The notes below the pieces were generated by a model that worked only from the letters and a program-made list of their open reading frames with translations, did no database searches and was not told where the DNA came from. This document shows positions 9,460 to 23,363 of a DNA stretch of 36,075 nucleotides, piece by piece. A program made the position numbers and the translations under genes. How positions within the stretch are numbered: position 1 is the first letter of the stretch; every line of letters begins with the position of its first letter. The stretch is from Agathobaculum butyriciproducens (GTDB lineage Bacteria > Bacillota > Clostridia > Oscillospirales > Butyricicoccaceae): contig QEKJ01000023.1 in the NCBI GenBank assembly GCA_003096535.1, forward strand, positions 1 through 36,075, in the 5' to 3' direction.

Positions 9460-9489
9460 TTGCATATTCCACATAAAAAGTGCTATAAT
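9460..9489 (+). promoter_or_regulatory. Promoter of the mgtE leader
   Basis: TTGCAT (9460-9465), 18 bases, TATAAT (9484-9489). The transcript would begin near 9496, about 230 bases before mgtE. Confidence 0.65.
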
Positions 9490-9522
9490 CATTGCGAAAA
9501 AATAAAAAAGGAGGCAAGTCCT

Positions 9523-9615
9523 ATGGACAGTTGTGACAGACGAAATGTACATATGACGATGGATACAGACTATACTGCTGTTTCGAGTGTCCGTAAGCAT
9601 CCTCTTTTGAAATAA
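9523..9615 (+). CDS. 30-residue leader ORF upstream of mgtE
   Basis: ATG at 9523, stop TAA at 9613-9615, with an excellent AAGGAGG 8 bases before the start and the first place in the transcript after the promoter. The peptide ends DYTAVSSVRKHPLLK and has no signal or membrane segment. Its own coding bases pair with parts of the downstream terminator region (see the attenuator entry), so its translation would decide which hairpin forms. A regulatory leader peptide for magnesium-linked control, comparable in logic to mgtL-type leaders, is the natural reading. I do not recognise the peptide. Confidence 0.6.
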   Translation: MDSCDRRNVHMTMDTDYTAVSSVRKHPLLK

Positions 9616-9712
9616 GCGCCGAGCCTTGCTCCATCGTGATGAACAAGTCCACAACTGATGTTTGTGTCACTGTATCTGTTACGGTGGATTTTTTGTGCCC
9701 TTTTCCGGGCAC
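9528..9712 (+). promoter_or_regulatory. Candidate attenuator in the mgtE leader
   Basis: A terminator-like stem (CACTGTA 9668-9674 with TACGGTG 9680-9686, loop TCTGT) is followed by T6 at 9689-9694, only 33 bases before mgtE. Competing pairings: ACGATGGA (9556-9563) with TCCATCGT (9630-9637); overlapping GATACAG (9562-9568) with CTGTATC (9670-9676), which is the terminator arm; CAGTTGTG (9528-9535) with CACAACTG (9650-9657). A last hairpin GTGCCC/GGGCAC (9695-9712) touches the mgtE ribosome site. I do not see the M-box consensus. Confidence 0.55.
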
Positions 9713-9727
9713 AGAAGGAGGCTGATT

Positions 9728-11122
9728 ATGAAAAAAGCAACATGGAAAAAAACATCTTTTGCCGAGAAAATCGTTGAGATCATCCGCACCTCCCCTTCGA
9801 TCAATGAGATGCGGGAGCAGCTGCAGGATTATCACGACAACGATATCGCACAAAGCCTGCAATTCCTAAACCGCGCGGAACGCAATCTGCTGTACAGCGC
9901 ACTTGATGCGGAATGGCTGGCAGAAATCATCTCCTATCTGGATGATCCGGCGGAATACATTGATGAAATCGGCATTGACAAGCTGGCCGAAATTCTGAAC
10001 GAAATGGATGCGGACGACGCGGTCGATCTGTGGGAGAACATCGACGAGAGCGTAAAAGTAAAGCTGCGCCCGATGATCGATGACGAAACCAAGTCAGCCA
10101 TCCTGCTTATCAATTCCTATGACGACAGCGAAGTCGGCAGCCTGATCACGACCAACTACATCTGCATCAAGCAGAACCTGACCATTCGGCAGGCCATGCA
10201 CGAGCTGGTAAAGCAGGCCGGTGAAAATGACAACATTGGAACGATTTATGTAGTCGATGATAAAAACCGCTTCTGCGGTGCAATCGACCTGAAGGATCTC
10301 ATCGTTGCCCGAGAGAACGTTCCGCTGGATTCCATCATCAGCTACGCGTATCCGTATCTGCTCGACCACGAGAAAATCTCAGAGAGCATCGAGAAGATCA
10401 AAGATTATGCCGAAGACTCCCTGCCGGTGCTGAATAAGGATAGAAAGATCATCGGTATCATCACCGCACAGGACGTTGTCGAGGCCGTGGATGACGAGCT
10501 CGGCGAGGACTATGCAAAGCTCGCCGGTTTGTCCGCCGAGGAGGATCTCAACGAAACCACCAGGGAAAGCATGAAAAAGCGCCTGCCGTGGCTGATCATC
10601 CTGCTGTTCCTCGGCATGGGCGTTTCGACCGTTGTCGGTGCATTTGAAGGCGTTGTAGCCGTGCTGCCGGTCGTTATCTGCTTCCAGTCGCTGATTCTCG
10701 ATATGGCCGGCAACGTTGGTACGCAGTCGCTGGCGGTTACGATTCGTGTGCTGATGGATGAAAACCTGAGTGCTAAGGACAAGCTGCACCTCACCTTCAA
10801 GGAAATGAAGGTCGGCACCTGCAACGGCGCGCTGCTCGGCATTATGGCGCTTGTCTTTCTCGGTGCATACATAGCGCTGTTCAAGGGCTATGCCATCGGA
10901 CATGCGTTCCTGATCTCCGGCTGCGTTGGCATATCACTGCTTGTAGCGATCGTGATTTCCAGTCTGGTCGGTACGCTCGTACCGATCCTGTTCCATAAAA
11001 TCAAGGTAGACCCGGCGGTTGCGTCCGGTCCGTTGATTACGACGATCAACGATCTGGTTGCCGTTGTAACATATTACGGTCTGGCATGGATTCTGCTGAT
11101 TCAGCTTTTGCATATTGTTTGA
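9728..11122 (+). CDS. mgtE: Magnesium transporter MgtE
   Basis: 464 residues; a homodimeric Mg2+ channel of the inner membrane gated by intracellular Mg2+. Domain order: helical N domain (about 1-130, with repeats such as IDEIGIDKLAEILNEMDADDAVDLWENI), two CBS domains (about 137-255, including SYAYPYLLDHEKISESIEKIKDYAEDSLPVL), a connecting helix, then five membrane segments from about 285. The pore region AGNVGTQSLAVTIRVL and the end IDPAVASGPLITTINDL-like stretch (KVDPAVASGPLITT, N, D) are typical; the selectivity Asp residue of the last segment is kept. GAAGGAGG precedes the ATG. Expression probably passes through the leader attenuator upstream. Confidence 0.95.
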   Translation: MKKATWKKTSFAEKIVEIIRTSPSINEMREQLQDYHDNDIAQSLQFLNRAERNLLYSALDAEWLAEIISYLDDPAEYIDEIGIDKLAEILNEMDADDAVDLWENIDESVKVKLRPMIDDETKSAILLINSYDDSEVGSLITTNYICIKQNLTIRQAMHELVKQAGENDNIGTIYVVDDKNRFCGAIDLKDLIVARENVPLDSIISYAYPYLLDHEKISESIEKIKDYAEDSLPVLNKDRKIIGIITAQDVVEAVDDELGEDYAKLAGLSAEEDLNETTRESMKKRLPWLIILLFLGMGVSTVVGAFEGVVAVLPVVICFQSLILDMAGNVGTQSLAVTIRVLMDENLSAKDKLHLTFKEMKVGTCNGALLGIMALVFLGAYIALFKGYAIGHAFLISGCVGISLLVAIVISSLVGTLVPILFHKIKVDPAVASGPLITTINDLVAVVTYYGLAWILLIQLLHIV

Positions 11123-11129
11123 GCGAAAA

Positions 11130-11163
11130 AACACCCTCTATATCGAATGATATAGAGGGTGTT
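11130..11163. terminator. Terminator after mgtE (bidirectional)
   Basis: Perfect 15-bp stem 11130-11144 with 11149-11163, loop GAAT, A-tract before it and TTTGC then TTTTT further on. It ends mgtE and can also stop minus-strand transcription past 11182. Confidence 0.85.
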
Positions 11164-11181
11164 TGCTATCTGTTTTTGCTT

Positions 11182-11691
11182 TTAATCATGCTTTCTGCGG
11201 ATACCGAAGTACGCCAGTCCCATTGCGGACAGACCGCACAGAGCCGCCCACAGACCGCCGATATCGCCGGTTTTCGGAACGCTGGACGTCGGAGTCTTGC
11301 TGTCGGGAATGTTCACTGTCTTCGTTTTATCCGGCGTCTTGGTCTGTGTTGCCGGCTTGGTCGTCGGAACCTTGCTGTCCGGGATGTTCTCCGTCGGCTT
11401 CAGCGGATCAAGCGGCGTAGGCTGATCCGGAATGTCAACCGGAGGCTTCGGATCCGGATCGGGATCGGGAGTCGGTTTCGGGTCCGGCTTGTGGTGACCG
11501 CCGCCGCCACCGCCGCCGCCGGATTTCTTGCTGTTGGTGATGGTGAAGCCATCTGCCATGCTGCCGGAAATCGAGGTATTAAAGCCGTCAACGGCCTCCT
11601 CTTCGACGGTATAGGTGTAAGCGCTATCCAGATTTGCAAAGGTGTACGACCAGGTCTTGCCGTCCTTGTCGGTCATGGAATAAAAAAGCAT
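11182..11691 (-). pseudogene. 3' fragment of a sortase-anchored CnaB-type surface protein
   Basis: The frame holds only the second half of a Cna-B-like beta domain (KTWSYTFANLDSAYTYTVEE, then VDGFNTSISGSMADGFTITN), a Gly8 hinge, a Pro/Asp/Lys-rich wall-spanning stretch, and a sortase signal: VPKTG, a hydrophobic helix and RRKHD. There is no signal peptide. The first in-frame ATG codons (11691 and 11676) lie in or just after the T-tract of the terminator of the lysR gene, with no ribosome site. The front of the gene is lost, so this is most likely a 5'-truncated relic. The downstream reading frame is intact, so decay is recent or the fragment is maintained. Confidence 0.7.
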
Positions 11692-21755: not shown

Positions 21756-21802
21756 GAAAACCCCTCCTTCAATAGTAAAAGACTACTATGAAGAAGCTGC
21801 AT

Positions 21803-21885
21803 TAGGAAACCGGCTGCCATGCGGAATACCTTCCGTTTAGGCCCTTGGCTTTGCGAGACCGGCTTTCACCGGTGGTGCTCTTGTC
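21803..21885 (-). promoter_or_regulatory. c-di-GMP-I (GEMM) riboswitch, proximal of a tandem pair
   Basis: On the minus strand: ACCGGTGAAAGCCGGT (GAAA tetraloop stem), then CTCGCAAAGCCAAGGGCC, TAAACGG, a variable stem, and ATGGCAGCCGGTT. These are the conserved blocks of GEMM-I. It ends about 30 bases before the GGAGG of the SLH beta-helix gene. No U-run follows, so control may be at translation. Confidence 0.88.
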
Positions 21886-21972
21886 TGTACAACTTACTCC
21901 TTATCGAGTAGCACAGATGGTTGGTTCTTTTTGAAATGGCTGTTGGCAACGCAGAATGGTTGTTCAGTCTCC

Positions 21973-22018: not shown

Positions 22019-22030
22019 ACAAAGTACCTT

Positions 22031-22115
22031 TGGCAACCGGCTGCCATGCGGAGAAAAAACTCCGTTTAGGCCCATCTGGCTTTGCGACACCGGTTTTCAC
22101 CGGCTGTGCCTTTGT
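22031..22115 (-). promoter_or_regulatory. c-di-GMP-I (GEMM) riboswitch, distal of a tandem pair
   Basis: On the minus strand: GCCGGTGAAAACCGGTGT (GAAA tetraloop), TCGCAAAGCCAGATGGGCC, TAAACGGAG, stem, GCATGGCAGCCGGTTGCC. It is close in sequence to the proximal copy, implying duplication, and is followed by a terminator at 21973-22018. Confidence 0.9.
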
Positions 22116-22242
22116 CTGTACCTGTATCCCTTTACGGAAGTCATGCACAGAATTTTACGATCTTTTCTGTCGACAGACACGCTGGACTGCATACACAGTC
22201 CTTTGCCTGCGCAGGACAGAAATCCTCCGGATCCTCTTCTTC

Positions 22243-23218: not shown

Positions 23219-23235
23219 ATCCGGCGATCTCCTTT

Positions 23236-23312
23236 CGGTAACTGGCTGCCAGCCCTCTCGATGAGGGGTAAGGCCCTATAGCTTTGCGTCGCCACCTTTC
23301 GGTGGGTTTGCT
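23236..23312 (-). promoter_or_regulatory. c-di-GMP-I (GEMM) riboswitch upstream of the transglutaminase gene
   Basis: On the minus strand: TAGCAAACCCACCGAAAGGT, GGCGACGCAAAGCTATAGGG, CC, variable stem, GGCTGGCAGCCAGTTACC. All conserved blocks, including the GAAA tetraloop and GACGCAAAGC, are present. Its 3' edge abuts the ribosome site (23229-23235), which favours translational control. Confidence 0.92.
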
Positions 23313-23363
23313 ATTATCGTTTGAGATGCGGTCAAAGCGACTGCATCATCTTCTTTTATCCTC

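Follow-up and report, generated by a model that had tools for sequence, protein, structure and literature searches.

A candidate ribosome-gated transcription attenuator in the mgtE leader of Agathobaculum butyriciproducens and related Clostridia

The Mg2+ transporter gene mgtE of Agathobaculum butyriciproducens, the sole PF01769 match in the whole genome, lies within a stretch of 36,075 nucleotides (nt; GenBank assembly GCA_003096535.1, contig QEKJ01000023.1, positions 1 to 36,075, forward strand; hereafter the window). Between its promoter and the gene we find a leader that contains a short open reading frame (ORF) preceded by a Shine-Dalgarno (SD) site, followed by an intrinsic terminator (Table 1). 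From the position of the promoter, transcription is expected to start at about 9496; the promoter was not listed by the pattern scan because its -35 element is poor. A first-pass annotation of the window had described one promoter, a strong ribosome site with a 30-codon ORF, and a U-tract 33 bases before mgtE, all of which were borne out. Sequence comparison demonstrates that this leader is real, conserved and common to many gut Clostridia. On balance we favour the view that it is a ribosome-gated transcription attenuator controlling mgtE, whereby delay of the ribosome at or before a CGA codon would turn the gene on and prompt passage would turn it off. The position of the ribosome at this one rare arginine codon thus probably decides mgtE transcription.

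Table 1 Features of the mgtE leader and gene in the window.
Feature	Positions	Strand	Remarks
Promoter	9460..9489	+	Read from sequence; weak -35-like TTGCAT 9460-9465, 18-nt spacer, extended -10 TGC-TATAAT
Extended -10 element	TG 9481-9482, TATAAT 9484-9489	+	Sequence
Leader-ORF Shine-Dalgarno GGAGG	9510..9514	+	8 bases 5' of ATG; kept in leader alignment
Leader ORF	9523..9615	+	30 codons, MDSCDRRNVHMTMDTDYTAVSSVRKHPLLK, stop TAA; member of conserved family
Conserved N-terminus M-D-S-C-D-	9523..9540	+	Alignment of 39 non-redundant leaders
Arg codon 7 (CGA), proposed gating codon	9541..9543	+	Codon-choice and geometry comparisons
Segment 1, putative antiterminator 5' arm within ORF	9552..9563	+	Core 9556-9563 ACGATGGA
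Segment 2, shared arm for segment 1 (antiterminator) or segment 3 (terminator)	9630..9640	+	Core 9630-9637 TCCATCGT
Small hairpin CACAAC...TTTGTG in terminator loop	9650..9666	+	CACAAC retained in close relatives
Segment 3, terminator 3' arm	9678..9688	+	Core 9681-9688 ACGGTGGA
Intrinsic-terminator U-tract	9689..9694	+	Ends 33 bases 5' of mgtE ATG at 9728
mgtE	9728..11122	+	Pfam: MgtE_N, CBS, MgtE domains

Folding places the intrinsic terminator at 9630-9640:9678-9688, around the small hairpin. A pattern scan had listed a local hairpin at 9667-9687 instead; the real stem is larger than the hairpin of the first-pass annotation. Bases 9556-9563 of the ORF pair with 9630-9637, bases that are also needed by the terminator, and with the terminator so placed this ORF pairing is therefore the antiterminator. 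The window alone provides modest evidence for such structure (fold z-score -1.88, with 6 of 200 shuffles as good; the ORF:9630 pairing was matched by 2 of 100 codon shuffles), and its strength comes from comparison. For 36 of the 57 distinct leaders a U-tract was picked manually from those listed. The pairing test took 25 of these 36, leaving out ten rumen-group loci and L066, where the architecture differs; L036 was then dropped because its terminator had been wrongly assigned, such that 24 loci were counted, with 16 distinct segment 2 sequences among them. Pairing of each segment 2 with its own ORF summed to -356 kcal/mol, as compared with -260 (standard deviation 13) when partners were permuted, a value reached in 0 of 20,000 permutations. 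The 8-base score of 356 likewise contrasts with 196 for codon-shuffled ORFs (standard deviation 16, maximum 233 of 200). The three segments change together, with CGATGG:CCATCG:CGATGG switching jointly to CGGTGG:CCACCG:CGGTGG and to other segment triplets, and own-ORF pairing is strong in many loci when judged locus by locus. The 9556-9563:9630-9637 pairing proposed by the first-pass annotation is thus present and conserved across loci. A second proposed partner of the ORF, 9670-9676, pairs perfectly with 9562-9568 in the window. Elsewhere, only 3 of 23 other loci have a comparably strong match anywhere between segments 2 and 3, no closest relative being among them. The annotated wiring therefore stood as to attenuation through the ORF:9630-9637 pairing and failed as to the terminator and the 9670-9676 pairing, while a third pairing holds only near by, as described below.

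We compared 80 + 48 mgtE loci from relatives which, with the A. butyriciproducens locus itself, make 129; 126 were kept for counting upstream regions following removal of duplicates and a contig-end locus. An SD-led short ORF is present in 93 of these 126 distinct regions, in contrast to 33 of 298 controls (regions upstream of other long ORFs that these loci carry). With Asp or Glu at codon 2 the counts are 79/126 and 4/298, and with an additional Arg at codons 6-14 they are 70/126 and 1/298. The window's leader belongs to a class beginning M-D-S/G/N-C-D-S/G... (MD.CD). Pattern hits L003, L010, L062, L075, L086, L094 and L005 were set aside as non-leaders. Other leader types begin MDADSNYRS, MDPDSNYRS, MEADSHYRS, MDGSSCSRS or PNGDSxGSxGRKR, and a second MgtE group that is only ~27% identical carries MDAGSS..GR and MEPGS... 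leaders. Among 39 non-redundant MD.CD leaders, residue 2 is always Asp, position 5 holds Asp in 38 and Glu in the remaining one, and position 4 is Cys in 35, Pro in two and Gly or Thr in one each; early acidic residues are weaker in the types outside MD.CD. The ORF is of coding type: start codons vary (ATG 35, GTG 3, TTG 1), as do stop codons (TAA 16, TGA 12, TAG 11), and at least 24 codons are open in frame in 38 leaders, in the +1 frame in 18 and in the +2 frame in none.

A sequence-only model of the ORF start gave 14 matches among 391 genomes of the class, of which eight are true leaders: our own genome, L130 and L132 (identical to model leaders), and five new ones. A gene with an MgtE_N domain follows all eight. 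The remaining six matches (L137-L140, L142, L143; E 0.0022-0.0099) have no conserved leader at the site and were judged to be chance, although the E-value of one true leader, L141, falls in that range as well. The viral contigs searched gave no relative. Within the genus, even a weak match (E 1e-7) was seen in only one of 24 genomes, some of them incomplete, while Ruminococcus bromii, Bulleidia and Mogibacterium have proteins 77-82% identical, preceded by leaders of clear kinship to that of the window. The leaders read also include those of R. bromii and Eubacterium ramulus (L024, L079). The unit of mgtE and leader (9523-11122) may have been horizontally acquired.

The first-pass annotation missed what proved most informative: two wobble codons, CGA and AGU, and where CGA is placed. 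Arginine codons at positions 7-9 are CGA in 37/37 cases, where 2.8 would be expected from usage in the same loci, and serine codons 2-10 are AGU in 86/94 (15.5 expected). Asp codons (GAC 48, GAU 30) and Cys codons (UGU 26, UGC 14) are mixed. To these we added 40 other leaders, hand-picked by eye from ORF lists by their peptides and not their codons; L111 and L120 among them start within a longer ORF. Where mgtE is at least 45% identical to that of the window, these leaders use CGA in 29/48 cases (4.7 expected) and AGU in 55/82 (9.0 expected); in the 27% MgtE group, CGA accounts for 13/25 (2.0 expected) and AGU for 14/29 (1.7 expected). A later set was fetched after the rule had been formed, and 37 of its 42 loci were kept (four had been seen before and one had a short upstream region); two of the 37 overlap earlier ones, L228 repeating the L071 leader and L229 coming from the L134 genome. 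Here CGA was used in 23/35 cases (2.5 expected) and AGU in 31/46 (4.0 expected). Of the upstream regions in this set, 20/37 had the ORF, 17/37 had Asp or Glu at codon 2 and 18/37 had a leader with in-frame CGA, as compared with 6/52, 1/52 and 1/52 controls. Overall, an in-frame CGA at codons 3-16 is found in 69 of 79 leaders and an in-frame AGU in 74. The codons flanking CGA vary in other leader types, which argues for selection of a codon rather than an RNA motif; CGAAGT as an RNA motif is possible in the MD.CD class and unlikely generally. CGA and AGU are thus favoured as codons, persisting though the peptides differ between lineages. As a separate observation, AGU is even more widespread than CGA, with 159 in frame versus 7 out of frame at codons 3-16.

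We typed 58 of the 59 tRNA genes of the genome. The arginine anticodons are TCT, ACG, CCT and CCG. None is TCG, so CGA is read, through inosine wobble, only by the single-copy tRNA-Arg(ACG); the A34 of such a tRNA becomes inosine. In a Salmonella his-leader assay, CGA was read poorly by its tRNA, and NNU codons were slower than NNC where both are served by single G34 tRNAs (PMC4046918).

The placing of CGA relative to segment 1 provides a second line of evidence. Complementarity between the ORF and downstream RNA is highest 12 nt (30 MD.CD leaders) or 13 nt (25 group-A leaders) beyond the first base of CGA, and 0 of 2000 sets of jittered anchors reached as high a peak (55 leaders). A ribosome holding CGA in its A site covers the mRNA to about CGA+12, as judged by footprint size. 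Counted along the ORF, segment 1 starts at nt 29-31 in the four loci with CGA at codon 7 (the window included) and at nt 34-37 in the 14 loci with CGA at codon 9, bar two at 30 and 31. It thus begins ~5 nt earlier when CGA is at codon 7 rather than 9 (P 0.005; L046, which is redundant, L135 and four loci without CGA were left out of this comparison). Segment 1 therefore appears to begin about one ribosome-edge length after CGA. We also folded transcripts ending before segment 3 with the bases under a ribosome masked, using those 19 of the 24 loci that have CGA at codon 7 or 9 (L043, L045, L083, L135 and L136 were left out). Mean segment 1:segment 2 pairing stayed at 1.14-1.25 units as long as the P-site codon was CGA-2 or earlier. 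It was 0.81 when CGA occupied the A site and 0.22 when CGA occupied the P site, and fell to 0.06 and less once CGA had moved beyond the P site. In 8/19 loci, or nine if the window (0.58) is counted, the antiterminator was poor or absent without a ribosome and better with one on the first codons; early ribosomes may consequently be needed for the ON state in those loci.

These observations suggest the following mechanism. A ribosome would translate the short ORF while RNA polymerase transcribes the leader. Were it held up no later than the step at which CGA occupies the A site, its leading edge would come to rest near the 5' border of segment 1, leaving this segment free to pair with segment 2 once that is made; the segment 2:segment 3 terminator would be blocked and mgtE transcribed. 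Were CGA decoded promptly, the ribosome would cover segment 1, segment 2 would be free for segment 3, and transcription would stop at 9689-9694. Attenuation with a leader peptide, as claimed by the first-pass annotation, is supported by a conserved coding-type ORF and a conserved choice between antiterminator and terminator. A short ORF with a ribosome site upstream is present which, by its sequence, would be translated, and the antiterminator and the intrinsic terminator exclude each other, one arm of the antiterminator lying inside that ORF, as indicated by co-variation with each locus's own ORF in the 24 loci tested. We infer the direction (delay as ON), a kinetic switch, and a cue, low Mg2+. 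This cue suggests itself because the gene imports Mg2+, because slow or aborted translation of acidic-start leader ORFs has been reported or proposed for Salmonella MgtL and MgtQ, and because of the poor reading of CGA and slow NNU decoding noted above. Low cytosolic Mg2+ would slow wobble decoding of CGA (I34-A) and AGU (G34-U), with the acidic N-terminus perhaps contributing. More tentatively, and with rather more doubt than confidence, we propose that the wobble decoding of CGA and AGU is itself the Mg2+ gauge: of all steps in translation, reading CGA by an I-A pair and AGU by a G-U pair would respond most strongly to falling Mg2+, and CGA would mark roughly the furthest point that a ribosome can reach while the antiterminator is still free. 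The codon, rather than an aptamer or an arrest peptide, would then be the metal sensor in two separate MgtE groups across Clostridia.

A number of observations weigh against this reading. The pairing test covers 24 of the 57 distinct leaders and only the window's type of terminator, and its permutations ignore phylogeny, so relatedness of the loci inflates the figures; the pairing is also unremarkable in L026, L043 and L083, where 23-32 of 100 codon shuffles were as good. In the window, the terminator wins at equilibrium at every ribosome position (P 0.9 or more). Equilibrium folding was rejected as a model of the switch, which must in consequence be kinetic, and only co-transcriptional folds, with a transcript ending before segment 3, are informative. 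The peak anchored at ATG (1.59) almost equals that anchored at CGA (1.67), because CGA is usually codon 9; it is therefore the shift between codon 7 and codon 9 that carries the geometry argument. The window's own segment 1 core starts 15, not 12, nt after CGA, and the group-B leaders (n = 11) are without a peak at CGA+12. In the masking folds, pairing was mostly lost with CGA in the A site in 6/19 loci (L023, L025, L038, L044, L046, L097) and kept at 0.45 or above with CGA in the P site in 5/19 (L001, L022, L034, L035, L056). The boundary is thus shifted forward by one codon in the six and back by about one in the five, coming earlier in the former and later in the latter, which makes it less sharp per locus than in the mean and slightly lowers our confidence. 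As to the codons, an in-frame CGA at codons 3-16 is missing from 10 of 79 leaders, and the lineage L041/L132 keeps CGAAGT out of frame. CGA also often occurs out of frame, with 80 in frame versus 56 in the other two frames of the 79 leaders (TGC-GA and ACGATGG, for example), so the case rests on synonymous choice. Finally, 47/126 mgtE upstream regions are without a leader ORF bearing Asp or Glu at codon 2, and the rumen group (within L050-L096), though it carries these codons, differs in architecture.

Inspection by eye of the rumen-group leaders listed indicates that bases of the ORF can form the 5' arm of a terminator. Codons 28-30 of the leader's own ORF are complementary to its SD region GUGACGAAG; in many of these leaders the match is between GTGACGAAG in the SD region and CTTCGTCAC within those codons. 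A GCUUCCC..UUGC element appears, again by eye, to mask the mgtE ribosome site. In the rumen group the same leader start thus appears to be coupled to another expression platform; both the rumen and the group-B misfits would make sense if the leaders had one sensor in common while their output parts changed.

The rival that survives best, though we regard it as unlikely, is that the nascent peptide is the sensor: Asp2 and Asp5 would destabilise the ribosome at low Mg2+, early abort would free segment 1, and CGA would only set the pace. The invariant acidic residues of the 39 MD.CD leaders speak for this, as do the MDPDS, MEADS and MEPGS starts of other leaders. Salmonella MgtQ needs Asp2 and Glu5 at the same spacing, where its authors state that destabilisation was not demonstrated (PMC8092293), and an EPDP motif is used by MgtL (PMC11282234). 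However, in many leaders just a single acidic residue comes early (MDGSSCSRS, MDAGSSNG...), and since synonymous codons leave the peptide unchanged, the near-exclusive use of CGA and AGU is left unexplained.

It is improbable that the leader senses arginine, or charged or inosine-modified tRNA-Arg(ICG), rather than Mg2+. Both the exclusive use of CGA at codons 7-9 and its reading by one single-copy tRNA would suit such a sensor. Set against this, the gene following the eight model-found leaders is always mgtE and never an arginine gene, an attenuator sensing an amino acid would be expected to carry more than one or two CGA codons, and serine AGU codons are favoured too.

A metal- or ligand-binding riboswitch built from the ORF region, with the ORF incidental, we consider highly improbable. 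It would account for the conserved nucleotides and long-range pairings of close relatives, in particular the third pairing of the first-pass annotation, 9528-9535:9650-9657 (AGTTGTGA:TCACAACT), which has 8/8 pairs in four close relatives and 7/8 in the window and four more. This pairing is present as claimed, but only near by and without co-variation: in loci with TGC instead of TGT at codon 4, the partner in the 9650-9657 region is unchanged. It was accordingly rejected as a conserved part of an antiterminator or aptamer. The interchange of ATG, GTG and TTG starts, the varying third bases of Asp and Cys codons and the closed +2 frame also speak against a riboswitch, as does the downstream RNA, which differs between lineages while CGA and AGU persist. 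No Rfam family matches the leader at gathering score, the best permissive hit to the stretch having E >1. An M-box (RF00380) was found neither in the window nor in the whole genome, while the control genomes of B. subtilis and L. lactis do match the model; the M-box and other Rfam families were thus rejected for the window, and the earlier statement that the leader does not look like an M-box holds. Likewise, no M-box was found in the 59 of 128 relatives' mgtE loci scanned. Across the class, the M-box is present in 90 of 391 genomes and in none of the eight sample genomes carrying an MD.CD leader, where only ~2 would be expected, so this absence is only a hint. One mgtE gene with an M-box just upstream (G519, L238) has no leader ORF by the criteria used.

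Lastly, the proposal made for the Pro, Leu and CGG codons of Salmonella mgtL (PMC6335274), in which low Mg2+ lowers TrmD-dependent m1G37 of the key-codon tRNA, can be dismissed here, as tRNA-Arg(ACG) of this genome has A37 (loop ctACGaa) and so offers no m1G37 substrate at CGA.

Ribosome-mediated attenuation is known as a kind, while the leader family, gene, hosts and CGA/AGU signature appear new. In his/trp-type attenuators, a delayed ribosome exposes the antiterminator arm of a three-segment terminator/antiterminator system. The mgtE leader shares this logic, but has no run of codons for a single amino acid; its proposed gating codon is a wobble codon, and the gene downstream encodes a metal transporter. 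MgtL, the leader of mgtA in Salmonella and E. coli, turns on its transporter gene by slow or aborted translation (PMC11282234). It resembles our leader in being a short ORF with early acidic residues before a Mg2+ transporter gene, and codon-specific models exist for it (PMC11282234, PMC6335274). It differs in the Rho-dependent termination and, in one model, the Pro, Leu and CGG codons, as compared with an intrinsic terminator, CGA/AGU and mgtE of Clostridia. MgtQ, an ORF in the Salmonella mgtC-mgtB intergenic region, has acidic residues 2 and 5 and alternative stem-loops overlapping the ORF (PMC8092293). In contrast, it has 8 codons and controls mgtB translation by SD masking with no terminator, and the accessible part of that report describes no role for CGA. 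The M-box (ykoK leader) is the Mg2+ riboswitch of mgtE in B. subtilis (PMC12288461) and was seen here immediately before one Clostridia mgtE (G519); it matches our leader in neither sequence nor structure, and the latter would be translation-dependent. A riboswitch candidate, the Thioalkalivibrio mgtE motif, also lies upstream of mgtE, but by its description in the available text is confined to that genus and consists of a stem with SD and start codon, with no leader ORF (PMC11109978). No mgtE leader peptide in Clostridia was described in the literature searched, outside which most subscription papers lie; within that scope, and with no Rfam match, the suggestion that the system may be undescribed is supported, and the ORF and its antiterminator pairing proved to be conserved in relatives.

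The model offers a testable mechanism for a gap, namely how Clostridia without an M-box adjust mgtE to Mg2+, and would mean that leader peptides control Mg2+ uptake in a large group of Firmicutes of the gut and rumen as well as in enterobacteria. It would also be a naturally conserved case in which the choice among synonymous codons (CGA, AGU) seems to act as the signal for regulation, such that single synonymous changes should break control.

Downstream of the terminator, the stretch 9689-9721 (the U-tract, then GTGCCCTTTT..GGAGG) is well kept in close relatives as judged by eye, and may be a second pause or termination element. Beyond mgtE, a terminator-like palindrome at 11129-11164 separates it from a facing gene, whose end at 11182-11691 (- strand) encodes a Gly-rich, proline/threonine-repeat protein with what by eye resembles a terminal membrane anchor. 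Elsewhere in the window, three c-di-GMP-I riboswitches lie inside 1.6 kb (21802-21889, 22029-22120 and 23234-23322, - strand), among long ORFs that by eye appear to encode secreted repeat/SLH-type proteins.

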